From Sphingomonas natans (lineage in GTDB: Bacteria > Pseudomonadota > Alphaproteobacteria > Sphingomonadales > Sphingomonadaceae), in NCBI RefSeq assembly GCF_030546695.1, contig NZ_JAUOTP010000002.1, positions 1 through 64,000 on the forward strand: DNA of 64,000 bases, given 5' to 3'. Under the pieces are notes generated by a model. It searched no databases. It had not been told where the DNA came from and saw nothing but the letters and a program-made list of their open reading frames with translations. How positions within the stretch are numbered: the first letter of the stretch is position 1; every line of letters starts with the position of its first letter. Both the position numbers and the translations under genes were made by a program. Below, one piece after another: positions 7,303 through 48,260 of the stretch.

Positions 7303-7403
7303 GAGGGCACCCTTACACAGACGAAGCGGCTGGCCGCCAATTGTGTTGAATCTGACAGACTAAAGCCGCTCGTGCGAGCGATTTGTGAGAAATTAACCAC
7401 GTG

Positions 7404-7412
7404 TTATCCACA
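7404..7412. promoter_or_regulatory. Perfect DnaA box in ftsA-ftsZ gap
   Basis: TTATCCACA matches the consensus DnaA box exactly. It lies 102 bases upstream of the ftsZ start (gene on minus strand), overlapping nothing coding. DnaA is known to act on ftsZ transcription in Caulobacter; use here is inferred. Confidence 0.55.
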
Positions 7413-7424
7413 GACTTGTTCACG

Positions 7425-8681
7425 TCAGTACGAACTTTTCACCACCGCCAGCAGCCTCTGGACCAGATTACCGGGCGAAAGCTTGACGATGGTTTGCGGC
7501 GCGGGAGACGGCCGCAGATCGATCGGATCGGACGCGGCGAACTGTACGAGCCCCGCAAGCGTCGAGAAAGCCGGGCCGCTATGCGCTTCGGGCAGTCCGA
7601 TCAGTCCGCGCGGCCGGCCGATGCGGACCGCGCGGCCGAGCGTACTCTGCGCATAATCGGCGATACCCTTCAGCTCCGCGCCGCCGCCGGTCAGCACCAC
7701 CTGCCGCCCGACCGGGCCGACGAAGCCGAGCTTCTTGAGCGCATCCTCGATCTGGCCGAAGATCTGCTCCAGCCGCTGGCGGATCACCGAGGTGAGCTGC
7801 GCGCGGGTGATGCGCGGCGCCTCGCCCGCATCCTGCTCGCCCGAGAGCGGCGCGACCTCGATCATCTCGTGATTGTCGCGCGGGGAGGTCTGCGCGGAGC
7901 CGTGGAAGCATTTCATCCGCTCGGCCTGCGCGCGGCGCGTGCCGAAGGCGGTGGCGATATCGTCGGTGATGTCGGCAGCGCCCAGCGGCACCGAGGTGAG
8001 CCCGACGAGAAGCCCGCCCGCGAAGAGCGAGACGTTCGTCACTTCCGCGCCGAGCTCGACGAGCGCCACGCCCAGCTCGCGCTCCTCGGGCGAGAGGCAG
8101 GCCATCGCGGTCGCGATCGGGCTCGCGACGATCTGGCGGACCGCGAGATGCGCCGAGCGGACGCACAGATCGAGATTGCGCACCGGCGACGGCTCGGCGA
8201 CGACGACATGGATATCGACACCCAGCCGATCGGCATGGAGGCCGAGCGGGTTTTTGACGCCCTTCAGCCCATCCAGCGTGTAGAGTGTCGGCTGCGCGTG
8301 GAGCACCATCCGCCCGTCGGGATCGATCGAGCGGCGTCCGGCCTCCAGCAGTTCATCGATATCGCGCTGCGCGATGCGCTGCCCGCCCAGATCGACTTCG
8401 ACCGAGGCGACGTCGGAATAGAGCCCGCCCGCCGAGAAGCTGAGCCACGTCTCGTCGATCTGCGTGCGCGCGATCCGCTCGGCCTGCTCCACCGCCTCGC
8501 GCACCGCGCCCTCGGTCGCGCCCATGTCGGCGATATAGCCGCGACGGATGCCCCGGCTCTCGCGCTGGCCGGTGCCGAGCACCATCAGCCCATCCGGCGT
8601 CGGCTGCGCGATCAGCGCCGCCACCTTAGACGAGCCGATATCGAGCGCCGTGATCAATCCTTCGCTACGCGTCTGGGCCAT
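7425..8681 (-). CDS. ftsA: Cell division protein FtsA
   Basis: Actin-like ATPase that tethers FtsZ to the membrane and recruits late division proteins. Actin-fold phosphate motifs are visible: phosphate 1 ALDIGSSKVAALI near residues 14-26, an IGG-type element VVLTGGGAELKGI near 310, and the adenosine region. The last residues (GNLVQRLLAVVKSSY) form the amphipathic membrane-targeting helix. At 418 residues it is the usual length. It is separated from ftsQ by a repeat-filled gap of 141 bases, unlike the tight overlaps of the other junctions. Confidence 0.97.
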   Translation of the reverse strand: MAQTRSEGLITALDIGSSKVAALIAQPTPDGLMVLGTGQRESRGIRRGYIADMGATEGAVREAVEQAERIARTQIDETWLSFSAGGLYSDVASVEVDLGGQRIAQRDIDELLEAGRRSIDPDGRMVLHAQPTLYTLDGLKGVKNPLGLHADRLGVDIHVVVAEPSPVRNLDLCVRSAHLAVRQIVASPIATAMACLSPEERELGVALVELGAEVTNVSLFAGGLLVGLTSVPLGAADITDDIATAFGTRRAQAERMKCFHGSAQTSPRDNHEMIEVAPLSGEQDAGEAPRITRAQLTSVIRQRLEQIFGQIEDALKKLGFVGPVGRQVVLTGGGAELKGIADYAQSTLGRAVRIGRPRGLIGLPEAHSGPAFSTLAGLVQFAASDPIDLRPSPAPQTIVKLSPGNLVQRLLAVVKSSY

Positions 8682-8702
8682 GACCGCGCCTCGTTACTGG
8701 AC

Positions 8703-8806
8703 TCCCCTCCCTGGAAGGGAGGGGTTGGGGGTGGGTGGATCCGGTGGCGGCCGCGCGGCGCGCCGATAGCGACCCACCGCTCGATCCCCTCCCTTTCAGG
8801 GAGGGG
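8703..8806. repeat. Palindromic repeat between ftsQ and ftsA
   Basis: CCCCTCCCTGGAAGGGAGGGG at one end and CCCCTCCCTTTCAGGGAGGGG at the other each form a hairpin and are inverted copies of each other around a variable centre. Architecture matches repeat family 1 (short palindrome at each end), but the end sequence differs. Confidence 0.7.
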
Positions 8807-8822
8807 AAGAAGAAGAACGCCC

Positions 8823-9758
8823 TCATATCGGATTGGCCGACTGCGGCGGCGTGACCTTCGCCCCCGGTTCGCTCGACATGCGGACCACCATCCGATCGGG
8901 AACGCGCATGTCGAAGCGGACGATCCCCTGCCCCAGCAGGCGCGCTTCGCTATCCTTGTGCGCGAAAAGCGCGAAGGCGTCGCGCGCCGCCTTGTCGCCC
9001 TCGGGCAGCATCAGCGTCTCGCCCGACTGGAAGCGCACGTCCCAGCGCCGTCCGCCGACCCAGGTCGCGCCCTCGATCAGGGGTTTGAGCACCGGCTGGC
9101 CGGCGATCAGCGTGCCGAATTCGGCGGCATGCAGGTTCGCGCCCTCGCCGATGACAAGGGGCAGCTGGTCGAGCGGCGCGGACGGATCGACCGGCGCGAT
9201 CACGCGGCCCGCGGCATCGATCAGCGAAAGCTTGTAATCGTGCTGCCAGACGCCCGCGGGCTTGCGCTCGACGATATCGACGACGAGCGTATCGGGCAGC
9301 CGCCGCGAGACGCGCGCATCCTCGACCCACGCAAGGCCCAGCAGCGACTGGCGGATGCCCGACAGATCGACGAGCGGCATATCCTGCCCGCGCGAATCCA
9401 TCGCCACGCGATAGACCGCGTCGCGATCGACATGGCTCCGCCCGTTGACCTCGATCGTGTGGACGACGAGCCCCATCCGCCCGAGATTGTGCGCGAGCGA
9501 CAAACCGATCATCCCCGGCACGCCCATCGCGACGACGCCCGCGATCAGCCCGCCTGCGAGGAACAGCCCGAGGCTCCAGTTGCGCACGCTGCGCAGGAAG
9601 CCATCCGGCAGCGGCAAAGCGGCGAAGGCCCGGCCGATCATCGCGCCCGCCTTTGGCGCGGCGGTGCGCGCGGGTGGGCGGACGCGCGTCGGCGCGCGGC
9701 GCGCGGCATTGCCGCTCGTGCCGCGCGACGATCGCTTGGGCAGGGCCTTCGCGCTCAT
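8823..9758 (-). CDS. ftsQ: Cell division protein FtsQ
   Basis: Bitopic division protein linking FtsA/FtsZ to FtsB/L/W/I. It has a basic, Arg-rich cytoplasmic tail (residues 1 to about 60), one membrane segment (about 66-86, LGLFLAGGLIAGVVAMGV), a POTRA domain starting at VVHTIEVNGRSHVDRDAVY, and then the FtsQ beta domain (RLPDTLVVDIVERKPAGVW onward). At 311 residues it is normal for Alphaproteobacteria. The start overlaps the ddl stop (ATGA), indicating coupled translation. Confidence 0.95.
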   Translation of the reverse strand: MSAKALPKRSSRGTSGNAARRAPTRVRPPARTAAPKAGAMIGRAFAALPLPDGFLRSVRNWSLGLFLAGGLIAGVVAMGVPGMIGLSLAHNLGRMGLVVHTIEVNGRSHVDRDAVYRVAMDSRGQDMPLVDLSGIRQSLLGLAWVEDARVSRRLPDTLVVDIVERKPAGVWQHDYKLSLIDAAGRVIAPVDPSAPLDQLPLVIGEGANLHAAEFGTLIAGQPVLKPLIEGATWVGGRRWDVRFQSGETLMLPEGDKAARDAFALFAHKDSEARLLGQGIVRFDMRVPDRMVVRMSSEPGAKVTPPQSANPI

Positions 9759-10699
9759 GCCGGCCTTCCTTGCAGCGCATCGTCGAGGATCGCCTGGACC
9801 AGCGCCTCGTACGAGATGCCGATCGCGCGCGCCTGTTCGGGCACGAGGCTGAGCGGGGTCATGCCGGGCTGGGTGTTGACCTCCAGCGAATAGAGGCCCG
9901 CCTCGCCCTGTTCATCGTCCCACCGGAAATCGGAGCGCGAGACGCCGCGGCAACCGAGCAGCCGGTGGGACTTGACCGCCATCGCCAGCATCGAGGCCGC
10001 GACATCGTCGGGGATGTTCTCGGCCGGGCAGACATGGGTGGTCATCCCGTCCGTATATTTGGCATCGTAATCGTACCATCCGGACTTCGGAATCAGTTCG
10101 GTGATGCCGAGCGCGCGCGGCCCCTCGGCGGTGTCGAGCACCGAAACGGTCAGTTCGCGCCCGCGAATATAGGGCTCGGCGAGCAACGTCTCGAAATGGC
10201 GCCACGGGCCTTCGCTGTCGCGCGCGATCGGATCGCCGACATTGCTTTCCGCCGTCACGATCGCGACGCCCACCGAGGAGCCTTCGTTGACGGGCTTCAG
10301 CACATAGGGCCGCGCGATCGGATCGCGCTCATACAGGGTTTCCGACGCGACGATCGTGCCCTGCGGCATGCGGATCCCGTGGGGGACGAGCGCCTGCTTG
10401 GTCAGCTCCTTGTCGATCGCGACGACCGAGGTGGCGAGCCCCGAATGCGTATAGGTCAGCCCCATCAGATCGAGCATGCCCTGGACGGTGCCGTCCTCGC
10501 CGGGAGAGCCGTGGAGCGCGTTGAAGACGATGTCGGGCGCGGCCGCGGCGAGCTTGAGCGCGACATCGCGGCCCATGTCGATCCGCGTCACGCGATGGCC
10601 AAGGCTCTCGCACGCCTTGGCGCAGCCCTCGCCCGAGACGAGGCTCACCTCGCGCTCGGCCGACCAGCCGCCCATCAGGACCACGACGTGGAGCGTCAT
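9755..10699 (-). CDS. ddl: D-alanine--D-alanine ligase
   Basis: ATP-grasp enzyme joining two D-alanines for the peptidoglycan stem peptide. The N-terminal LMGGWSAEREVSLVSG motif, HGSPGEDGTVQG, the ATP-grasp loop KPVNEGSSVGV and the metal-binding LEVNTQPGMT near the C-terminus are present. I chose the ATG at 10699, which overlaps the murB stop (ATGA) and gives 314 residues, the family length. The frame extends much further upstream only because it stays open behind murB. Confidence 0.96.
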   Translation of the reverse strand: MTLHVVVLMGGWSAEREVSLVSGEGCAKACESLGHRVTRIDMGRDVALKLAAAAPDIVFNALHGSPGEDGTVQGMLDLMGLTYTHSGLATSVVAIDKELTKQALVPHGIRMPQGTIVASETLYERDPIARPYVLKPVNEGSSVGVAIVTAESNVGDPIARDSEGPWRHFETLLAEPYIRGRELTVSVLDTAEGPRALGITELIPKSGWYDYDAKYTDGMTTHVCPAENIPDDVAASMLAMAVKSHRLLGCRGVSRSDFRWDDEQGEAGLYSLEVNTQPGMTPLSLVPEQARAIGISYEALVQAILDDALQGRPA

Positions 10700-26539: not shown

Positions 26540-26587
26540 TCTTCCCCTCCCCGGAAGGGAACGTTGAAGAACGCGAAACCCCTATCC

Positions 26588-26676
26588 CGTTTGCCCTGAG
26601 CTTGTCGAAGGGCCGTGTTGTTCTCTCGACCATATTCGAGAGAAGGACGATGCTTCGACAGGCTCAGCACGAACGG
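26588..26676. repeat. Palindromic intergenic repeat (GAGCTTGTCGAAG type)
   Basis: CCCTGAGCTTGTCGAAGGG and CTTCGACAGGCTCAGCACG are inverted imperfect copies at the two ends, and an inner TTCTCTCGA/TTCGAGAGAA hairpin fills the centre. It lies between the PilZ gene and convergent cysK, so it may also end transcription. Confidence 0.7.
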
Positions 26677-26728
26677 TTTTGGGGTTGGCCCGATATTGGC
26701 AACGGCCCCTGGACGGGAGAGGCAAATC

Positions 26729-34078: not shown

Positions 34079-34148
34079 CGCGCCCTCTCTACGAGAGCCG
34101 CGCGGAGAACGGAAGGTGGCCGTTCTTGCCCGCTAGCGCGGGGGCGAA

Positions 34149-34220
34149 ACCGGCCCGCTCCCCCACCCGACCTCCCACAGAGTATCCTGATTGGGAGGTC
34201 GGGTGGGGGAGCGGGCCGGT
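34149..34220. repeat. Perfect 29-base inverted repeat between bamD and recN
   Basis: Positions 34149-34177 and 34192-34220 are perfect reverse complements (29 pairs, C-rich arm starting ACCGGCCCGCTCCCCC) with a 14-base loop. No T-run follows on either strand, so it is not a canonical terminator. It lies in the 183 bases between bamD and recN. Confidence 0.85.
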
Positions 34221-34261
34221 GCCGCACGCAATTCAGCATCGCTGAATTGCCCAAAAAGCGA

Positions 34262-37545: not shown

Positions 37546-37621
37546 GGTGGCTTAGCTCAGTTGGTAGAGCATCTCGTTTACACCGAGAGGGTCGGCGGTT
37601 CGAGCCCGTCAGCCACTACCA
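37546..37621 (+). tRNA. tRNA-Val (anticodon TAC)
   Basis: Full 76-base cloverleaf with encoded CCA. The acceptor GGTGGCT pairs with AGCCACT (first pair G-U). The D-arm is AGCTCAGTTGGTAGAGC, the anticodon arm TCTCG-TTTACAC-CGAGA, and the T-arm carries GGTTCGAGCC. Confidence 0.96.
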
Positions 37622-38383: not shown

Positions 38384-38431
38384 ATGCGCCTTCGTGGCAA
38401 GGGCCGCGACTCAGCAACGAAGGGATGTCCC

Positions 38432-38995
38432 ATGCCGCACGCGCCTTTGCCCGATGCCCGCCCCAACCGCCTGCTTGTCGAACGATCGATCTGCGACGCG
38501 TCGCACGCCTTGGCCACCGGGCAGAGCGCCCGGGCAGAGAGCGCCGCGTCCGCCGCTCGTACTCCTGCCGCGCGCCGCGCCCCGCGCCGCAGCGTCACCG
38601 TCAATCTCGCCGAATCGCCGCTCGGCTGGCTCCACGCGCGCGGCCTCGTCTCGACGCGCCAGTTCGATGCGGGCGAGCGACTGCGCGCCGACTGGACGAT
38701 GGCGCAGCTCGGGCCGCGCGTGACGATGCGCTGGGATCCGAGCCCCGTCGCCCGCGGCCGGCGCGCGGCGGACGCCCCGCTCGATCCGACGCTCGCCGGC
38801 ATCGCGGCCAAGCGCCGCTTCGACGCGGCCATCGCCGCCGCCGGCACCGGTCTGGCCGACATCCTCTGGCGCGTTGTGTGCGACGGGAGCGGACTGGAGG
38901 CGGCCGAGGGTGCGCTCGGCTGGCCCAAAAGATCGGGCAAGCTCGTCCTGCTCATGGCGCTCGATCGGGTCGCCGACTATTACCGGCTCCCGTGA
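38432..38995 (+). CDS. DUF6456 domain protein
   Basis: A 187-residue protein. The conserved part starts at ESPLGWLHARGLVSTRQFDAG and continues through RLRADWTMAQLGPRVTMRWD to DILWRVVCDGSGLEAAEGAL and LMALDRVADYY near the end. This is the DUF6456 pattern, thought to be a DNA-binding helical domain related to phage-like regulators. The ATG at 38432 has AAGGGA 7 bases upstream. It overlaps tlyA by 4 bases (GTGA), so they are co-translated. Confidence 0.85.
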   Translation: MPHAPLPDARPNRLLVERSICDASHALATGQSARAESAASAARTPAARRAPRRSVTVNLAESPLGWLHARGLVSTRQFDAGERLRADWTMAQLGPRVTMRWDPSPVARGRRAADAPLDPTLAGIAAKRRFDAAIAAAGTGLADILWRVVCDGSGLEAAEGALGWPKRSGKLVLLMALDRVADYYRLP

Positions 38996-39732
38996 GCCCC
39001 CCGAAAAAGTCCCGCGTCGATCAGGCGCTCGTCGATCGCGGCCTCGTCGAAAGCCGCGCGCGTGCGCAGGCGCTGATCCTCGCGGGCCTCGTCTATGCGG
39101 GCGAGCGCAAGATCGCCAAGGCGGGCGAGGCCATCGCCGACGATGTCCCGCTCGATGTGCGCGGCCGCGATCATCCCTGGGTCTCGCGCGGGGGGATCAA
39201 GCTGGATCATGCACTCGCGCATTTCGGCTGGGACGTGACCGGCGCCGTGGCGATGGACGTCGGCTCGTCGACGGGCGGCTTCACCGACGTGCTGCTGACG
39301 CGCGGCGCGGCCAAGGTCTATGCGATCGATGTCGGCACCAACCAGCTCGCCTGGAAGATCCGCCAGGACGAGCGCGTCATCGTCCACGAAAAGACCAACG
39401 CCCGCGCCATCACCGATGCGCAGGTGCCCGAGCCCATCGACATCCTCGTCTGCGACGCGAGCTTCATCGCGCTCGCCAAGGTGATGGATCGCCCGCTCGA
39501 TTTCGCGAAGCCCGATGCGCGCGCGGTGATGCTCATTAAGCCGCAGTTCGAGGCGGGGCGCGAGGAAGTCGGCAAGGGCGGCGTGATCCGCGATTCCGAC
39601 GTCCACGCCCGCGTCTGCGCCGAGGCGCGCGCGTGGATCGAAGGCAAGGGCTGGACGGTTGAGGGGATCGTCCCGAGCCCGATCACCGGGCCTGAGGGCA
39701 ATGTCGAATTCCTGATGGCGGCGAGGCGATAA
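38992..39732 (+). CDS. tlyA: TlyA family rRNA methyltransferase
   Basis: A 246-residue protein with an S4 RNA-binding domain at the N-terminus (RVDQALVDRGLVESRARAQA) and an FtsJ-like SAM methyltransferase domain (AMDVGSSTGGFTDVLLTRGA, DILVCDASFIALA). TlyA methylates ribose sites on 16S and 23S rRNA and confers capreomycin sensitivity in mycobacteria. The start is a GTG overlapping the DUF6456 stop. The C-terminal motif VEGIVPSPITGPEGNVEF is repeated in a broken form 1.46 kb downstream, beyond the hydrolase gene. Confidence 0.93.
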   Translation: MSPPKKSRVDQALVDRGLVESRARAQALILAGLVYAGERKIAKAGEAIADDVPLDVRGRDHPWVSRGGIKLDHALAHFGWDVTGAVAMDVGSSTGGFTDVLLTRGAAKVYAIDVGTNQLAWKIRQDERVIVHEKTNARAITDAQVPEPIDILVCDASFIALAKVMDRPLDFAKPDARAVMLIKPQFEAGREEVGKGGVIRDSDVHARVCAEARAWIEGKGWTVEGIVPSPITGPEGNVEFLMAARR

Positions 39733-39761: not shown

Positions 39762-41183
39762 ATGCTGCGAACCGCATCAGCGTTCCTGCTCTTTGTATTA
39801 TTCGCCGCGACGGCCGTATCGCCCGGCAGCGCTGCCTCGGCCGGGCGCATCGCGTTGCAGACCTGCACCCTACCCGACGCGAGCCGCCCTGGTCGGTGCG
39901 GGACCTTGACCGTTCCGGAAGATCCGACGCGGCCCAGCGGACGTCGCATCGACATTGCGGTCGCGGTTCTGCCCGCCCGCAGCGGCCGCGCCTTACCCGA
40001 TCCGGTCGTCATCCTGCTGGGCGGGCCCGGCGAGAGTGCGATCGATGCAGCCGGTATCCACGAACGCTGGCTGGATCCGCTGCTGGGCGATCACGATCTC
40101 GTTCTGGTCGATCAGCGCGGCGCGGGCCGATCGCACCCGCTCGCGTGCGACATGACGCCGGGCGGCGACGATCGCGCGCTGCTTACCGACATCTTCCCGC
40201 CCGCCGCTGTCGCCGCCTGCGCGAAGACGCTGCGCCAGCGCACCGACCTGACCCGCTATGGCTATGCCGATTTCGCGCGCGACCTGGAGCAGGTGCGGCG
40301 CGGCCTCGGCTACGGGCGGCTCAACCTCTTCGCCGGATCCTATGGCACGCGGGCGCTGCAGGTCTTTCTACGCGCCTATCCGGCGAGCGTGCGGACCGCC
40401 TATTTCAGTTCGGTCGTACCCATCGACATCGTAGCGCCGCAGACGATGGCGGCTACAGCCGCGAAACAGCTCGACCGGATGTTCGAGTCCTGCGCTGCCG
40501 ATGCTGCGTGCCGTGAACAGCATCCGGAGCTTCGCGCGCATTTCGCCGCTCTGCTCGATCGTCTCGAACGCGGAGCGGTGCGGGTCGCGCTACCCGGCCA
40601 GCCCGGGATCCATACGATGCGACGCGGGCCCGTCGCCGCCTGGATCCGCTCGCGTTTGTATCGCCCGTCGTCGGCGGCAGCCCTGCCCGCTGCGATCGAC
40701 CGCGCTTATGCCGGCGACTGGCAGCCGATCGTCGCCGGCATCCGCGCCAGCGCGCATCCCGATCTGAGCTTCGGCCTGCTTTTCGCGATCACCTGCAACG
40801 AGGACATGCGCTTCTGGAGGCCGGTCGCTTCGGCCAGGCCCGTGGGCTTTCTCGGCGATTTCCGCGTCGATCAGCAACGGGCGGCCTGCCGCTTCTGGCC
40901 CGGGTCGAAGCTGCCGGATGGGTATCGCACGCCGATCCGATCGGTCGTGCCCGCCCTGTTCTCGACGGGACAGGACGATGGCGGAACACCCGTGTGGTTC
41001 ACCGATCACGCGGCGCGCGGCTTCTCCCACGCGGCGATCATCGTAACCCCGATGCAGGGCCACACCGAATGGAATGCCTGCATCGCCGCGCGCTATTTCG
41101 CCTTGGTGCGCGAGGCGCGGATTCGCGGACCGAGGCGGCAGCTTTGCACTGCTGCCCCCCGGCCCGCCTTCGCGATCGACTGA
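39762..41183 (+). CDS. Secreted alpha/beta hydrolase (TAP/S33 peptidase family)
   Basis: A 473-residue exported protein. A signal peptide covers about residues 1-25. Family features are VVILLGGPGESAID (oxyanion region, about 82-95), VLVDQRGAGRSHP, the nucleophile motif AGSYGTR with Ser at about 193, the acid in STGQDDGGTPV and the histidine in MQGHTEWN near 440. This fits tripeptidyl-aminopeptidase-like hydrolases. Codon use includes TTA and CTA, uncommon in its neighbours. It lies between tlyA and a tlyA 3' fossil, which suggests it was acquired by recombination at tlyA. Confidence 0.85.
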   Translation: MLRTASAFLLFVLFAATAVSPGSAASAGRIALQTCTLPDASRPGRCGTLTVPEDPTRPSGRRIDIAVAVLPARSGRALPDPVVILLGGPGESAIDAAGIHERWLDPLLGDHDLVLVDQRGAGRSHPLACDMTPGGDDRALLTDIFPPAAVAACAKTLRQRTDLTRYGYADFARDLEQVRRGLGYGRLNLFAGSYGTRALQVFLRAYPASVRTAYFSSVVPIDIVAPQTMAATAAKQLDRMFESCAADAACREQHPELRAHFAALLDRLERGAVRVALPGQPGIHTMRRGPVAAWIRSRLYRPSSAAALPAAIDRAYAGDWQPIVAGIRASAHPDLSFGLLFAITCNEDMRFWRPVASARPVGFLGDFRVDQQRAACRFWPGSKLPDGYRTPIRSVVPALFSTGQDDGGTPVWFTDHAARGFSHAAIIVTPMQGHTEWNACIAARYFALVREARIRGPRRQLCTAAPRPAFAID

Positions 41184-41192
41184 CAGGCTGCA

Positions 41193-41276
41193 ATCGCGGA
41201 CGCGTCGCACCGCGTCCGGTGGATCGAAGCGCGCGACTGGCGGGTTGAGGGCGTCGCGCCTAGCCCGATCAGGGGC
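41193..41276 (+). pseudogene. Fossil of a tlyA 3' end
   Basis: Read in one frame this stretch gives WIEARDWRVEGVAPSPIRG, matching the tlyA C-terminus WIEGKGWTVEGIVPSPITG at 39643-39699 in 13 of 19 positions. Before it, DASHRV resembles the DVHARV of tlyA, with a few codons deleted. The nucleotide match is strong around TGGATCGAAG and AGCCCGATCA. There is no upstream part, so it is a decayed fragment. It diverges from the intact copy enough to come from a related strain or an old duplication. Confidence 0.7.
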
Positions 41277-41345
41277 CGGAGCGCTGATCACATTCCCGAT
41301 AGCGGCCGTGACGACTGGCTGCATCCAAACCGAAGAGTCCACCCG

Positions 41346-41816
41346 ATGCGTCTCCGCCTTCCGATCGTGACCGCCTTGGTCGTCCTGCTCCTCGGCCTCG
41401 CCTCGGGCTGGCTCAGTGGCTCGGGCGCCGGCAACGCCTGGTTCGATGCGCTCGCCAAGCCCGGCTTCATGCCGCCGGGCTGGGCTTTCCCGGTCGCCTG
41501 GACGACGCTCTATCTGATGATCGGCACAGCCTTCGGCCTCATCCTCGAGACCCGGCATCCCCTGCGCAGCCGCGCGATCCTGCTGTTCGTCGCGCAGCTC
41601 CTGCTCAATTATGCCTGGTCGCCGGTGTTCTTCGCGCTTCATCAGCCGCTGCGCGCGCTCGCGATCATCGTCCTGATGGTGATCCTGACCGCGCTGACCG
41701 CGCTCGATTTCCACCGGATTCGGCCGCTCGCCGCCTGGCTGCTGCTGCCCTATCTCGCCTGGCTGATCTTCGCGGCGACGCTGAACGGCGCGATCGTGGC
41801 GCTCAACCCTGCCTGA
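41346..41816 (+). CDS. tspO: TspO/MBR family protein
   Basis: A 156-residue protein with five hydrophobic segments, matching the TspO fold that binds porphyrins and cholesterol-like ligands. Family signatures are WFDALAKPGFMPPGWAFPVAWTTLY (the Px(3)PPxW region) and LLLNYAWSPVFFALHQP with conserved Trp and Asn. TspO helps regulate photosynthesis and tetrapyrrole or stress responses in other Alphaproteobacteria. The ATG at 41346 sits 69 bases past the tlyA fossil. Confidence 0.92.
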   Translation: MRLRLPIVTALVVLLLGLASGWLSGSGAGNAWFDALAKPGFMPPGWAFPVAWTTLYLMIGTAFGLILETRHPLRSRAILLFVAQLLLNYAWSPVFFALHQPLRALAIIVLMVILTALTALDFHRIRPLAAWLLLPYLAWLIFAATLNGAIVALNPA

Positions 41817-41873
41817 GCTTGCGGGCGAGCCTATCCGGCCCCATCTAGCGCCCCGACGAAGGAGCTTTCCCCA

Positions 41874-42164
41874 ATGCAGACCGAAAATCGCCTGTTCGAG
41901 GATTTCGTGAAGATGGCGAACGGCGTCGCCGGCACCTTCGCCGGCATGGCGCGCGAGGGCGAGGCCGGCGCGCGCGAGAAGTTCAAGGGCTGGCTCGGCG
42001 GCATGGATTTCGTCAGCCGCGAGGAATTCGAGGCGGTCAAGGCGATGGCGGCCGCCGCGCGCGACGAGGTCGATGCGCTTCGCGCCGAGATCGCCGCGCT
42101 GAAGCCCGCCACGGGCGCCAAGTCGCGGGGCAAGGCCGAAACTCCTCCTCCCATTCAGGATTGA
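41874..42164 (+). CDS. UbiK/YqiC (BMFP) family accessory factor
   Basis: A 96-residue protein. The BMFP pattern is present: QTENRLFEDFVKMANGVAGTFAGM, GWLGGMDFVSREEFEAVKAMA, then a C-terminal coiled coil (RDEVDALRAEIAALKP). In E. coli UbiK binds the ubiquinone-synthesis complex and lipids. GGAG lies 10 bases before the ATG. It is followed by a 95-base gap, so it may be a single-gene unit. Confidence 0.88.
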   Translation: MQTENRLFEDFVKMANGVAGTFAGMAREGEAGAREKFKGWLGGMDFVSREEFEAVKAMAAAARDEVDALRAEIAALKPATGAKSRGKAETPPPIQD

Positions 42165-42259
42165 GTCACGCTCTATCCACAGCTTTATGCCCATATGTGC
42201 ATGGGCGCGCTTGCACAAAGGCAGGCGACCGCTAACCCTCGGCGGAACCGGAGGGCGGG

Positions 42260-42775
42260 ATGACGATGCTGGCGGACGAATATGAGGCGGATCGCGACGG
42301 CGGCGCCCCCATCGATACGCTCGAACAATATTGCGAGGCGCATGGCTGGTCGTTCGAGCGGCTCGGCGACGACGAGCTGATCGCCACCGTTCAGGGCAGC
42401 TGGGCCAAATATGAGCTGCGCGGCGTCTGGCGCGAGGAGGATCGCGTCCTCCAGATCCTCGCGCTTCCCGACATCCGCGTCCCCGCCGACCGCCGCCCCC
42501 AGCTCTACGAGACGATCGGGCTCGTCAACGAGCAGCTCTGGATCGGCCATTTCGAACTGTGGTCGTCGAGCGGCATCCTCCTTTTCCGCCACGGCGCGCT
42601 GCTGGATCTGGCGAACGACGCCGCGCTGACGATCGACCAGGCCGAGACGTTGATCGAGGCCGCGATCGAGGAGTGCGAGCGCTTCTACCCCGTCTTCCAG
42701 TTCGTCCTGTGGGGCGGCAAGTCCCCGACCGAAGCGATCGCTGCCGCTTTGATCGAGACGCACGGCGAGGCCTGA
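42260..42775 (+). CDS. YbjN domain protein
   Basis: A 171-residue acidic cytoplasmic protein with the YbjN/DUF1790 pattern (GWSFERLGDDELIATVQGSWAKYELRGVW, VPADRRPQLYETIGLVNEQLWIGHFEL, and FVLWGGKSPTEAIAAALIETHGEA at the C-terminus). The fold is shared with type III secretion chaperones, but the role is unknown. It precedes proC by 7 bases, a pairing seen in many Alphaproteobacteria. Confidence 0.9.
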   Translation: MTMLADEYEADRDGGAPIDTLEQYCEAHGWSFERLGDDELIATVQGSWAKYELRGVWREEDRVLQILALPDIRVPADRRPQLYETIGLVNEQLWIGHFELWSSSGILLFRHGALLDLANDAALTIDQAETLIEAAIEECERFYPVFQFVLWGGKSPTEAIAAALIETHGEA

Positions 42776-42782
42776 AGCCGTC

Positions 42783-43592
42783 ATGCCCTTTCCGATCAAA
42801 GGGCCGATCTGGTTCATGGGCTGCGGCAATATGGGCGGCGCGATGCTGTCGTGCTGGCTGGAGGCTGGGCTGGATCCGGCTCGCGTCACCGTCATCCGCA
42901 AATCGGGCGAGGCCGTCGCGATGGGCGTGACCGTGCTGACCGCGCCTCCGCCCGACGGCCCGGTCCCATCCCTCGTCGTGCTCGCGGTCAAGCCGCAGAT
43001 GCTGGATCTGGTCGCGCCCGCGCTGGCGCCGATGCTCGATCCCACGACCCTGCTCGTCTCGATCCTCGCCGGGGTCGAGACGGAGGCGCTGCGCCGCCGC
43101 TTCCCGGCACCCCGCGCCGTGCTTCGCGCGATGCCCAACACACCGATCGCGATCGGCCGCGGTGTCGTCGCGCTCCACGGCGACGGGCTCGATCATGCCG
43201 GCCGCGAGCATGCCGAAGCGCTGATGGCGCCGCTCGGCACGGTCGAATGGGTCGATGAAAGCCTGTTCGACGTCGTCACCGCGCTCGCCGGCTCGGGCCC
43301 CGCTTTCCTCTTCCGTTTCGTCGATGCGCTCGCCGCAGCCGGCGCCGATGCCGGGCTCGACGCGGCTCAGGCCGCGCGGCTCGCTCTCGCCACCGTCACC
43401 GGCGCGGGCCTTCTCGCCGAGGGCAGCACCGAAAGTCTCGCCGCGCTCGCCAATCGCGTCGCCAGCAAGGGCGGCAGCACGCGCGCCGGGCTCGACATCC
43501 TCGACGAGCCGAGCGCACTGAAGGCGCTGATCCGCGACACGATCGACGCCGCGATCCTGCGCAATCGCGAGATGGCGGCGGCGGCGCGATGA
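42783..43592 (+). CDS. proC: Pyrroline-5-carboxylate reductase
   Basis: Last step of proline synthesis, NAD(P)H-dependent. The N-terminal Rossmann motif FMGCGNMGGAMLSCW and the substrate region LAGSGPAFLFRFVDALAAAGADAG are present. The 269 residues are the family length. It is flanked by ybjN (7 bases) and the AI-2E gene, which starts inside its stop (ATGA). Confidence 0.95.
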   Translation: MPFPIKGPIWFMGCGNMGGAMLSCWLEAGLDPARVTVIRKSGEAVAMGVTVLTAPPPDGPVPSLVVLAVKPQMLDLVAPALAPMLDPTTLLVSILAGVETEALRRRFPAPRAVLRAMPNTPIAIGRGVVALHGDGLDHAGREHAEALMAPLGTVEWVDESLFDVVTALAGSGPAFLFRFVDALAAAGADAGLDAAQAARLALATVTGAGLLAEGSTESLAALANRVASKGGSTRAGLDILDEPSALKALIRDTIDAAILRNREMAAAAR

Positions 43593-44701
43593 AGCCGGCA
43601 ATCGATCCGGCGCGGACGCATCGCATCTCAAAGATAGTCCTCTCGATCGGGCTGGCGGTGCTCGGCCTGTGGATCGGCGGCACCTTCCTGCCTGCCTTGG
43701 TCTGGGCGGCGATCATCGGGATCGCGATCGATCCGCTCTATCGCCGCGCCGAGGCGCGCTGGCCGCGCGCGCGTGGCCTGCTACTGCCGCTCGTCGCGAC
43801 GACTTTGATCGCGTTGCTCGTGCTCGTGCCGCTGGCGATGGGCGCGATCGAGGCGGCGCGCGAGGCCAAATATCTGTTCGCCTGGCTCGCCGACGCGCAG
43901 GAAAACGGCATGCCCGAGCCCGCCTGGCTCGCGCGCCTGCCGCTCTTCTCCGATCAGGTCACGATCTGGTGGCACGACAATCTCGCGACGCCCGAAGGCG
44001 CGGGCCAGCAGCTCCACCGCCTGCGCAGCACGGTGCTGATCCAGCAGTCGCAACTGCTGGGCAAGGGGCTGATCCTGCGCAGCATCATCTTCGGCTTCAC
44101 GTTGATGGCGCTCTTCTTCGTGCTGCGCGATCGCGACGTGATCGTCGCGCAATTCGCGCGCGCCGGAGAACGGCTCCTGGGCCCCGCCGGCAAGCGCCTC
44201 GGCGGTCAGGTGATCCTGTCGGTGCGCGGCACGATCGATGGGCTGGTGCTGGTCGGCATCGGCGAGGGCGCGGTGATGGCGGTCGTCTATCTGATCGCGG
44301 GCGTCCCCCACCCGCTGCTGCTCGGCTCGATCACCGCGGTCGCGGCGATGATCCCGTTCGGCGCCGCCGCCATCTTCCTGATCGCGGGCGCGCTGCTCGT
44401 GGGCGAAGGCGCGGTCGGATGGGCGATCGCCGTGTTCGCGATCGGCATGGGTGTGGTGTTCATCGCCGATCATTTCATCCGCCCGGTGCTGATCGGCGGC
44501 GCGACGCGCCTGCCCTTTCTGCTCGTACTGATCGGCATCTTGGGCGGGGTCGAAATGCTGGGCCTGCTCGGTCTGTTCGTCGGCCCGGCGACGATGGCGG
44601 TGCTGATGATGCTGTGGCGCGATTATGTCGGCGCCAATCTCAGCGCGACACCTCCACCACATGAGTCGCGAGCCGCGCCACCTCCGCCGGATTATGGCTG
44701 A
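43589..44701 (+). CDS. AI-2E family transporter
   Basis: A 370-residue membrane protein with about eight segments. Paired hydrophobic helices lie at about 15-50 and 62-82, a periplasmic part at about 95-150, and six helices follow to about 345. The conserved region GSITAVAAMIPFGAAAIFLIAGALL and LGLFVGPATMAVLMMLWRDY are typical. Members include TqsA and Na+/H+ antiporter-like proteins; substrate unknown. The Pro-rich C-terminus (PPPHESRAAPPPPDYG) overlaps the 3' end of antisense modC by 62 bases. Confidence 0.88.
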   Translation: MKPAIDPARTHRISKIVLSIGLAVLGLWIGGTFLPALVWAAIIGIAIDPLYRRAEARWPRARGLLLPLVATTLIALLVLVPLAMGAIEAAREAKYLFAWLADAQENGMPEPAWLARLPLFSDQVTIWWHDNLATPEGAGQQLHRLRSTVLIQQSQLLGKGLILRSIIFGFTLMALFFVLRDRDVIVAQFARAGERLLGPAGKRLGGQVILSVRGTIDGLVLVGIGEGAVMAVVYLIAGVPHPLLLGSITAVAAMIPFGAAAIFLIAGALLVGEGAVGWAIAVFAIGMGVVFIADHFIRPVLIGGATRLPFLLVLIGILGGVEMLGLLGLFVGPATMAVLMMLWRDYVGANLSATPPPHESRAAPPPPDYG

Positions 44702-45251
44702 CATAGAGGATCGGCAGGCCGACCTCGTCGCGGATCCGCTCGATCACCACCATGATCTCGTCCGCCCGCGCGCGATCCAGCGCGACGAGCGGCTCGTCCA
44801 TCAGCAGGAAGCGCGGGCCTGACAGCAAGGCGCGGCCGATCGCGACGCGCTGCGCCTCCCCGCCCGAAAGCGAGGCGGGCCGGCGATCGAGCAGATGGCC
44901 GATGCCAAGGAAAGTCGCCGCCTCGTCGAGCCCCATCAGCGCCGCCTCTTCGCGCCGCCCGTAAGCGAGATTGGCCCGGACGCTGAGGTGCGGGAACAGC
45001 CGCCGATCCTGAAACACATAGCCCGCGCGCCGCGTCTCGGGCGGCACGTCGATGCCGTCGCCGAACAGAGTCTCGCCGGCGACGACGATCCGCCCCCGAT
45101 CGGGCCGCAGGAGCCCTGCGACCATGTTCAAGACGCTCGTCTTGCCGCAGCCCGACGGCCCGAACAGAGCCGTCAGCCCCGGTCCCGACGAGAAAGCGAG
45201 CCGGATCTCCGCCTCGCCGATCCGCCGTACGACATCGACCTCAAAGGACAT
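44640..45251 (-). CDS. modC: Molybdate ABC transporter ATP-binding protein (short form)
   Basis: ATPase of the molybdate importer. Walker A GPSGCGKTSVLNM is near residue 32, the Q-loop VFQDRRLFPHLSV near 80, the signature LSGGEAQRVAIGRALL near 128 and the Walker B FLLMDEPLVALDRAR next to it. At 203 residues it lacks the C-terminal MOP/TOBE domain (usual ModC about 350 residues), so it may not sense molybdate itself. It overlaps modB by 11 bases and the AI-2E gene at its 3' end. Confidence 0.9.
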   Translation of the reverse strand: MSFEVDVVRRIGEAEIRLAFSSGPGLTALFGPSGCGKTSVLNMVAGLLRPDRGRIVVAGETLFGDGIDVPPETRRAGYVFQDRRLFPHLSVRANLAYGRREEAALMGLDEAATFLGIGHLLDRRPASLSGGEAQRVAIGRALLSGPRFLLMDEPLVALDRARADEIMVVIERIRDEVGLPILYVSHNPAEVARLATHVVEVSR

Positions 45252-45927
45252 GGGCGCGGGGGTTGGCGCGGCGGATCATCAGCTCCGAGGCGATCAGCGC
45301 GCCGAGCGACAGGATCACCGAGACGATGGCGAGCCGCACAACACGGCCTTCTCCGCCCGGGACCTGCATCGCCGCATAGATGGCGATCGGCAGCGTCCCG
45401 GTTTCGCCCGGTATGTTCGAGACGAAGCTGATCGTCGCGCCGAACTCGCCGAGCGAGCGCGCGAAACCGAGCACGAGCCCGGCGAGGATCCCCGGCAGGG
45501 CCAGCGGCAGGCTGATCGTCCGGAACACGCGCACGCGGCTCGCGCCCAAAGTCCGCGCCGCCTCCTCCAGCCGGGCGTCGATCGCCTCGATCGAAAGCCG
45601 GATCGCGCGGACCATCAGCGGCAGCGCCATCACCGCCGCGGCGATCACCGCGCCCGTCCAGCGGAACATCACCGTCACCCCGAACCAGCGATCGAGCAAC
45701 CCGCCGATCGGCCCCATCCGCCCGAAGAGCAGCAACAACGCCCAGCCCGTCACGACCGGCGGCAGCACGAGGGGCAGATGGACGAGCGCATCGACGAGGA
45801 TCCGCCCCGGAAAGCGCTTGCGCGCCAACAGCCAGGCCAAAGCGAAGGCGATCGGCAAAACAAGCAGCACCGCCGTGATCGCGACCTTCAGCGAGAGCAG
45901 GACGATCCCCCAGTCTTCGCCGGTCAT
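45241..45927 (-). CDS. modB: Molybdate ABC transporter permease
   Basis: Inner membrane subunit with about five or six helices. The EAA loop EEAARTLGASRVRVFRTISLPLALPG (about residues 140-165) binds ModC. The ATG at 45927 gives 228 residues, the family length, and starts 8 bases past the modA stop. The gene order modA-modB-modC on the minus strand supports molybdate. Confidence 0.93.
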   Translation of the reverse strand: MTGEDWGIVLLSLKVAITAVLLVLPIAFALAWLLARKRFPGRILVDALVHLPLVLPPVVTGWALLLLFGRMGPIGGLLDRWFGVTVMFRWTGAVIAAAVMALPLMVRAIRLSIEAIDARLEEAARTLGASRVRVFRTISLPLALPGILAGLVLGFARSLGEFGATISFVSNIPGETGTLPIAIYAAMQVPGGEGRVVRLAIVSVILSLGALIASELMIRRANPRAHVL

Positions 45928-45934
45928 ATGCGCG

Positions 45935-46687
45935 TCATCGCGTACCGAAGCCGTAGCGGCGGAAGATCGCCTTGGCTGGCACCGAGCCGAGGAAGCGCAG
46001 GAAGGGCGCCGCATCCGCGCTCTTGGCCGCACTCAGCACCGCGGCAGGATAGAGGATCGGCGCATGGCTGTCGGCGGGGAAGGTGCCGACCACCTTCACC
46101 TTCGGCGAGGCGAGCGCGTCGGTCAGATAGACGATCCCGTACGGCGCTTCGCCACGCTCGACCAAGGCCAGCGCCGCGCGGACATTCTCGGCGCGCGCCA
46201 CCTTCGGCGCGACCCCCGCCCACACGCCGAGCTTCGTCAGCGCCTCGCGACCGTACAGCCCCGCGGGCACCGCATCGGGATCCGCCATCGCCAATTTCTC
46301 GCGGCCCAGGGCCGCCGCCAGCGGAAAGCCGCGCCGGATCGGCATCGGCCGCGTCGGCCCCGCCGGTGCGATCAGCACGAGCTGGTTGGTCAGCAAGGCA
46401 ATGCGCGTGCCGGGCGCGACCAGCTTGCGCTGTTCGACATAGTCCATCCACGGAATGTCGGCCGAGACGAACAGATCGGCCGGCGCACCTGCCGCGATCT
46501 GGCGGGCCAGCGCCGAGGAGGCCGCAAAGGAGAGCGTCGGCCGCTCGTGCCCGGCCTTGGCCCAGGCATCGGCGGCGGCGTTCAATGATTCCTGCAGGCT
46601 GGCGGCGGCCAGCACGATCGGCGGCGCGGCGGCGGCTTGCCCGGAGAAGCCGAGCAACAGGAGCAGGACGAAGACGAAGCGGCGCAT
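45935..46687 (-). CDS. modA: Molybdate-binding periplasmic protein
   Basis: Extracytoplasmic binding protein with a signal peptide at about residues 1-21 (FVFVLLLLLGFSGQAAA). Family features are VLAAASLQESLNAAAD, FAASSALARQIAAGAPADLFVSAD and the C-terminal FLRFLGSVPAKAIFRRYGF. The 250 residues are typical. It is divergent from the DNA glycosylase gene with only 43 bases between the starts. Confidence 0.93.
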   Translation of the reverse strand: MRRFVFVLLLLLGFSGQAAAAPPIVLAAASLQESLNAAADAWAKAGHERPTLSFAASSALARQIAAGAPADLFVSADIPWMDYVEQRKLVAPGTRIALLTNQLVLIAPAGPTRPMPIRRGFPLAAALGREKLAMADPDAVPAGLYGREALTKLGVWAGVAPKVARAENVRAALALVERGEAPYGIVYLTDALASPKVKVVGTFPADSHAPILYPAAVLSAAKSADAAPFLRFLGSVPAKAIFRRYGFGTR

Positions 46688-46730
46688 GATGCTCCCCTTG
46701 AGGGCCAGGCACGTCTATGCACGAGCGGAT

Positions 46731-47228
46731 ATGGCGATGACAATCAAGACCGCCTTCCCGCCCAGCGTCGCGCCCGATGCGCGCCTGCTCGTCCTGGGCT
46801 CGCTGCCCGGCGAGGAATCGCTGCGGCAGGGGCGCTATTATGCGCACCCCACCAACGCCTTCTGGTGGCTGATCGGCGAGGTGATCGGCGAGCCGCTCCC
46901 CTCGCTCGCCTATGAGAAGCGGCTGGCACGGCTGAGGGCGCACCGCATCGGCCTGTGGGACGTGATCGCGACCGCGCAGCGGCAGGGCAGTCTCGATCAG
47001 GCGATCCGCGAGGCCGAGCTGCGCGATCTGGCGGGGTTCGTGGAAGCGCTCCCGGAGTTGCGCGCGGTGGCGTTCAACGGCCAGACCTCGGCGCGGCATG
47101 GGCGCAAGCAATTGGCGGGCGAGGCGCGACTGACGTTGCTGGACCTGCCCTCGTCCAGCGCAGCGCATGCGGGAATGGCGCGCGACGCGAAGCGGGAGGC
47201 GTGGCTGGAGTTGCGGGAATTTCTGTAA
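46731..47228 (+). CDS. DNA-deoxyinosine glycosylase (UDG superfamily)
   Basis: A 165-residue base-excision repair enzyme. The family start LVLGSLPGEESLRQGRYYAH and PTNAFWWLIGEVIG is clear, with RIGLWDVIATAQRQGS and VAFNGQTSARHG also conserved. Members remove hypoxanthine or mispaired uracil from DNA. The ATG at 46731 is followed by a second in-frame ATG (46737), both possible. The frame open upstream lies antisense to modA and is not used. Confidence 0.85.
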   Translation: MAMTIKTAFPPSVAPDARLLVLGSLPGEESLRQGRYYAHPTNAFWWLIGEVIGEPLPSLAYEKRLARLRAHRIGLWDVIATAQRQGSLDQAIREAELRDLAGFVEALPELRAVAFNGQTSARHGRKQLAGEARLTLLDLPSSSAAHAGMARDAKREAWLELREFL

Positions 47229-47234
47229 TCCCAA

Positions 47235-47409
47235 CCGCTCATCCTGAGGAGCCATTGAGCCCTTCGACTGCCTGCTAAGGCAGGCGCTCAGGATAAACTT
47301 CGTGCCGCAGGCACGAAGCCGAAATGGCGTCTCGAAGGACCAGACCAGACGTCGCCAGTCCTTCGAGACGGGCCTTCGCCTTCGCTCAGTCCCTCCTCAG
47401 GATGAGCGG
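47235..47409. repeat. Palindromic repeat family 2 copy C
   Basis: Begins CCGCTCATCCTGAGGAG and ends CTCCTCAGGATGAGCGGG, with nested CCTGCTAAGGCAGG and GTGCCGCAGGCAC hairpins, as in copy B. It fills the convergent gap between the glycosylase gene and thiD. Confidence 0.8.
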
Positions 47410-47426
47410 GGGAATATTTGCCGCCC

Positions 47427-48260
47427 TCAAATCCGCAGCGACGGCTTGCTCCGGAAATGTTCGCGCCCCAGCCCATGCCCCATCGGCCCGTGCCCCAGGC
47501 CCAGACCCGGCGCCGCCTCGATCGCGCTGCGCACATAGAAGCGCGCGCGCGTGATCGCCGCCTCGGGCTCCAGCCCCGCGCCTAGTCCCGTCGCGATTGC
47601 GCTCGACAAGGTGCAGCCCGTGCCGTGCGTGTTGCGCGATTCGATCCGCTCACCCGACCATTCGGCGACCGTCCCGTTCCAGCCGACGAGCCGATCGACG
47701 AGCTTCGGCCCCTCGGCATGGCCGCCTTTCACGAGGAAGGCGGCCTGATGATCGCGCACGAGCCCGATCGCCGCCGCGACCTGCGCGCCTTCGTCGGCGA
47801 GCGCTGAAACACCCGCCAGGGCGGCCAGTTCGGGCAGATTGGGCGTGACCAGCACCGACAGGCTCATCAGCCTGCCGAATGCCGCGATCGTCGCGGGATC
47901 GGCCAGCACCGCGCCGCTGGATGCGATCATCACCGGATCGAACACGATCGGCACGATCTCGCGCCCCTGGAACAAGGCCGCCAGCCGCTCCGCCACCGCC
48001 TCGGCGACGTCGGGCGAGCCGATCATCCCGATCTTGATCGCGTCGACGCCGATGTCGGAGACGACCGCATCGATCTGCGCGACGACCATCTCGGGCGGGA
48101 CCGGCATCACCGCGCTCACGTCGAGCGTGTTCTGCGCGGTGATCGCGGTGATCGCGGTCAGCGCATGCCCGCCCAGCATCGTGATCGTCTTGATGTCGGC
48201 CTGGATGCCCGCGCCGCCGCCCGAATCCGAGCCGGCGATCGAGAGGATGCGGGGTATCAC
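47427..48260 (-). CDS. thiD: HMP/HMP-phosphate kinase
   Basis: Ribokinase-like enzyme phosphorylating hydroxymethylpyrimidine and its phosphate for thiamine synthesis. The N-terminal [22 protein letters not shown] and the C-terminal [20 protein letters not shown] anion-hole motif are clear. The GTG at 48260 overlaps the glmM stop (GTGA) and gives 277 residues; the frame is open 8 codons further up. No thiamine riboswitch is seen, in keeping with its place as the second gene of a glmM operon. Confidence 0.93.

Follow-up and report, generated by a model that had tools for sequence, protein, structure and literature searches.

A hydrolase gene acquired between tlyA and tspO in Sphingomonas natans and followed by a degraded second tlyA 3' end

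Introduction

How does a hydrolase gene come to stand directly behind an intact tlyA gene, with a stretch resembling the tlyA 3' end on its other side? This arrangement occurs in the window, a 64 kb stretch of DNA (64,000 nucleotides) from the 4.56 Mb genome of Sphingomonas natans. Its genes and spacers were compared with those of six congeners and of more distant relatives. Three points are taken up below: what the gene order was before the hydrolase arrived, whether the tlyA-like stretch is a genuine remnant, and by which route the present layout may have been produced.

The tlyA-tspO junction

The intact tlyA gene (38992..39732, + strand) encodes a TlyA family rRNA 2'-O-methyltransferase (TIGR00478, 231 bits, above the cut-off). 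The product also scores above the cut-off for Pfam FtsJ and just below it for S4, and the GTG start at 38992 overlaps the stop of a DUF6456 gene. The sole tRNA gene in the window, a tRNA-Val(TAC) at 37546-37621, lies about 1.4 kb upstream of tlyA. On the same strand, beyond the hydrolase, are tspO (41346..41816, TspO/MBR family, PF03073, 138 bits) and a BMFP gene (41874..42164, PF04380). The order tlyA-tspO-BMFP-YbjN on one strand is found in 64 of 80 named relatives, in 44 of which tspO starts no more than 240 bp from tlyA. This order is ancestral: tspO is the original downstream neighbor of tlyA, and the BMFP gene, judged by synteny, is the next. In one congener, G003, the stop of tlyA even overlaps the start of tspO.

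The tlyA fossil upstream of tspO

Just upstream of tspO, where tlyA ends in relatives, a degraded second version of the tlyA 3' end lies at 41196..41314 (+ strand). This fossil is homologous to about 39604-39729 of tlyA, with several small indels. Its core spans 41219-41309; the start is weak at ~41196 and solid at 41219, and the end falls at 41309-41314. A preliminary description of this DNA had read bases 41193-41276 as a diverged copy of the tlyA C-terminus. The profile, shuffle and control-locus tests given below bear this out, the limits having been drawn slightly too tightly. Pairwise alignment of fossil and tlyA gives 118 aligned bases, 90 of them identical (76%), with 10 gap columns, and extends to the last codons of tlyA, nearly to the stop. 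The small indels are mostly of non-codon length, so the frame is broken and the coding capacity lost. In an unsupervised repeat search, no direct repeat in the region was longer than 39633-39685 / 41219-41271 (53 nt without gaps, 75% identity).

When 30 tlyA genes were combined into a DNA profile and run with nhmmer against the 64 kb window, 41219-41309 matched profile positions 642-734 (E 2.5e-6). This match ranked second after tlyA itself, and the third had an E value of 0.025. With the TlyA protein profile, the fossil was the top non-tlyA match among 1328 reading frames (E 1e-3). When the final 156 nt of tlyA were aligned locally with the spacer, the score was 245, against a maximum of 172 in 20,000 first-order shuffles. 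In none of 21 relatives that have different inserts downstream of tlyA is there a comparable tlyA match (p 0.10-0.98, versus 5.5e-6 for the window). Simple pairwise DNA scoring, judged against GC-rich coding DNA of the window itself, gave a weaker result (p 0.004), which indicates that composition matters and that the profile and control-locus tests are needed; the profile and shuffle results hold despite this effect. The pairwise value is what speaks for a chance resemblance in GC-rich DNA. Against it stand the profile E value, the 0 of 20,000 shuffles and 0 of 21 control intervals, and the correct position and orientation of the match. These tests reject chance as the source of the fossil, a reading that we regard as exceedingly improbable.

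The position of the fossil can also be read from relatives. It aligns collinearly with the tlyA-tspO junction of G003 (p about 1e-4 for that junction alone), and this, together with the tlyA-tspO order in relatives, places it where the 3' end of tlyA stood in the ancestor. Among the relatives examined, none was found that keeps the same order with a stretch here dissimilar to tlyA. When 107 tlyA genes were compared with the fossil, the window's own tlyA was among the two best matches; a tree of the 120-nt tlyA 3' end including the fossil gave no useful support. The frame of the first part of the fossil is stop-free (41184-41345) into tspO, forming a 210-codon frame, so that in principle TspO could carry a leader derived from TlyA. 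Since TspO of G003 starts at the usual place, the open frame from 41184 is read as a probable coincidence, and the fossil was rejected as an N-terminal extension of TspO.

The inserted hydrolase gene

The hydrolase gene (39762..41183, + strand) is an intact ORF of 473 aa lying exactly between tlyA and the fossil, as previously described. The product is a predicted S33-type alpha/beta hydrolase with matches to Abhydrolase_1 and Abhydrolase_4. The alpha/beta hydrolase domain, the TAP-like C-terminal domain and a Ser-Asp-His triad are all recognizable; the putative catalytic residues, Ser193/Asp406/His434, are common to two homologues. The N-terminus is hydrophobic and signal-peptide-like, and the protein is probably secreted. 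In fold family, signal-peptide-like N-terminus and triad it resembles the S33 TAP-like hydrolases (Hip1, carboxylesterase A and the prolyl aminopeptidases). It differs from them in being only distantly similar in sequence, the best match to their chains having an E value of 2.5e-11 over the first half only.

The hydrolase gene was acquired by insertion between tlyA and tspO, as the preliminary description had supposed. Beyond the ancestral order already described, its distribution is patchy. No close counterpart occurs in the six congeners, where the sole match, in G001, is 27% identical and lies elsewhere in that genome. The search was extended to about 1,150 further genomes (family, order and class samples). 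Of 397 genomes of the family, one (G196) has a homologue above 40% identity, at 62%; the order and class samples have none above 38%. The locus in G196 is a different one, between a filamentous-haemagglutinin/CdiA-like region and RNase J/coaX/birA-like genes (read from translations), and four sampled genus mates of G196 do not have the homologue. The DNA flanking and downstream of the 62% homologue has no similarity to tlyA, and the idea that fossil and hydrolase travelled together was dropped on this ground. In a plasmid search every match was below 60% identity (24-32% among the matches listed), and a scan of genome contigs with the hydrolase gave no match. A donor arrangement of tlyA followed by the hydrolase was not found in any genome searched.

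Codon usage also sets the gene apart, and here too the earlier remark on TTA/CTA codons proved sound. Of its 43 leucine codons 5 are TTA or CTA, whereas the remaining ORFs of the window have 26 among 1833 (Fisher p 5e-4); across all 48 window ORFs these codons number 31. In codon score the gene ranks near the bottom of the 48, leaving aside a lower-scoring ORF (38425-39732) that is partly out of frame and is to be ignored. In codon use the extreme case is a long ORF at 7401-9893 (830 aa), more atypical than any other in the window.

The gap between tlyA and the hydrolase is 29 bp, with a purine-rich GGAGACG just ahead of the hydrolase ATG and no terminator-like site in between. These features suggest that the hydrolase is likely to be expressed by read-through from the tlyA operon.

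The tlyA-tspO interval in other Sphingomonadaceae

Extra DNA at this place is not confined to the window. Among the loci examined (L137-L216), 64 relatives have the tlyA-tspO order, and 20 of these carry 0.65-4.4 kb of additional DNA in the gap, twelve of them about 4.3 kb. Both 4.3-kb inserts inspected contain an RND-type efflux pair; other inserts contain a TauE/SafE-like transporter, an MFS transporter, an ankyrin-repeat lipoprotein, a GFA-type protein or a TonB-dependent receptor (all named by eye). The window is like several relatives in which different genes occupy one place, and differs from them in its tlyA remnant, which none of 21 further inserts studied here shows. A search across the family for second tlyA C-termini gave weak second matches in many genomes and was left out of the argument. 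One can imagine the conserved tlyA 3' end as a recurrent landing strip, where accessory genes repeatedly enter by tlyA-anchored recombination and the window is the sole case with a readable displaced end; we consider this generalization doubtful.

Routes of insertion

On balance, we favor an origin of the layout by tlyA-anchored recombination whose downstream joint was illegitimate, or by single-crossover insertion of a circle. A piece of DNA carrying the 3' part of a tlyA and then the hydrolase would have entered the cell and recombined homologously inside tlyA, which would have remained whole. At its other end an illegitimate joint would have formed, either inside the old 3' end of tlyA or immediately ahead of it (homology-facilitated illegitimate recombination). 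Alternatively, the piece may have been a circle that entered through one crossover. In both cases the old 3' end of tlyA, displaced 1.6 kb downstream and useless, would then have decayed. The non-homologous joint, with the microhomology expected at it, would fall between 41184 and 41219, in sequence too heavily decayed to show it. Inspection of ORFs and repeats between tlyA and tspO found no integrase and no attachment-like repeat. For this reason a mobile element was rejected as the carrier, and the illegitimate-join and single-crossover routes are preferred over a site-specific element. The two routes are not separable here, and the hydrolase and the scar need not stem from one event.

The preliminary description had held that a foreign segment recombined at tlyA and that the displaced 3' end decayed. 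Fossil and insertion agree with this; a foreign origin of the intact end does not emerge. The last 144 nt of the intact tlyA are 84.7% identical to those of the sister species G001, the next best being 77.8%, and the gene as a whole, including its last 90-144 nt, is nearest to G001. No recombinant foreign tract was detected in tlyA, although such a tract would escape notice had the donor been close or had the event preceded the split. The grouping with G001 means that the exchange predates the split from it, or that the donor was a near relative or the cell's own tlyA. Probably, then, the event is an old one that preceded the split from the closest sequenced species, or the incoming tlyA piece was supplied by a near relative or by a circular form of nearly native sequence. 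Points against our preferred explanation are an intact 3' end that is not detectably foreign, the rearranged interval of G001, which hides the timing, the failure of the searches to turn up a tlyA-hydrolase donor, and the lack of a scar in the 21 other inserts.

The main rival supposes two events, a tandem duplication of the tlyA 3' end before tspO (by slippage or unequal crossover) and a later insertion of the hydrolase between the copies. The native-like end of the intact tlyA, the high ranking of the cell's own tlyA among matches to the fossil and the frequency of inserts in this interval (20 of 64 loci) are all in its favor. However, none of the 80 named loci, whether it carries an insert or not, showed a second tlyA fragment, and two events are required where one suffices; we hold it to be unlikely. 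In a further alternative, a site-specific integrative element entered at the 3' end of tlyA, which it thereby restored; the insert would be what is left of it, the integrase and att sites having since been lost and the hydrolase kept as cargo. The model is the e14 prophage in E. coli icd, where the gene is whole and its old 3' end (163 bp) lies beyond the insert (PMC6379469). The end product is alike, with an intact gene, an insert and a displaced ~160-bp 3' end surviving on its far side, and inserts do recur at the tlyA-tspO spot. In contrast to e14, the window has no integrase, recombinase or perfect att-like repeat (the 53-nt repeat being only 75% identical), its insert is a single gene of about 1.4 kb, its remnant is heavily decayed, and other inserts have no tlyA remnants. 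Such an element is therefore an improbable source. It is also conceivable that the foreign side consists of the tlyA 3' fragment together with a tspO regained from a relative, with the hydrolase arriving alongside or later. G001, G002, G004 and G006 do lack tspO at the equivalent place, but the window tspO is nearest to that of G003 (61%), with a synonymous divergence in line with vertically inherited genes, and this history is judged highly improbable.

The preferred reading, a tlyA-anchored insertion, has precedents. Homology-facilitated illegitimate recombination has been described at other loci (PMC3240628) and was proposed for effector displacement in the V. cholerae T6SS, where the old effector 3' end is shifted downstream (PMC5361080). 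On this reading the window shares with these cases a single homologous anchor in a conserved gene, a gene added behind it and an old 3' end displaced downstream. It differs in being anchored in a housekeeping gene, that of an rRNA methyltransferase, in the addition of one gene only, and in that no donor or recombination point was found. The displaced end can be read as a single-gene insertion scar: the ancestor had tlyA-tspO, the hydrolase came later, and no mobile element is needed. The scar is well supported, yet as a horizontal-transfer footprint it is of an ordinary, known kind and alone changes no general idea. A wider sample could help explain how accessory genes collect behind the housekeeping tlyA in the family.

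Age of the event and rearrangement in the sister species

Synonymous divergence (dS) between the window and G001 is 0.57 for tlyA, 0.57 for proC and 0.51 for YbjN; the divergence of tlyA is thus ordinary and vertical. The fossil, at 76% identity (24% divergence plus indels), would be roughly as old as the split from G001, to which this dS of 0.57 refers, with a large error. Timing cannot be read from G001 itself, which is rearranged and no longer has any of the interval: similarity between G001 and the window breaks off just past the tlyA stop and picks up again beyond tspO, where the downstream block is inverted. At this locus (L079, G001:C1:1738000-1757000) the block from BMFP through YbjN and proC onward (window 41840-48002) lies inverted about 6 kb from tlyA. 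A repeat like window 26585-26681 is found near two edges of the inverted block in opposite orientations and is possibly the cause of the inversion. Another short repeat, REP-like and palindromic (window 34142-34246), matches the congener loci L084 and L085 in both orientations.
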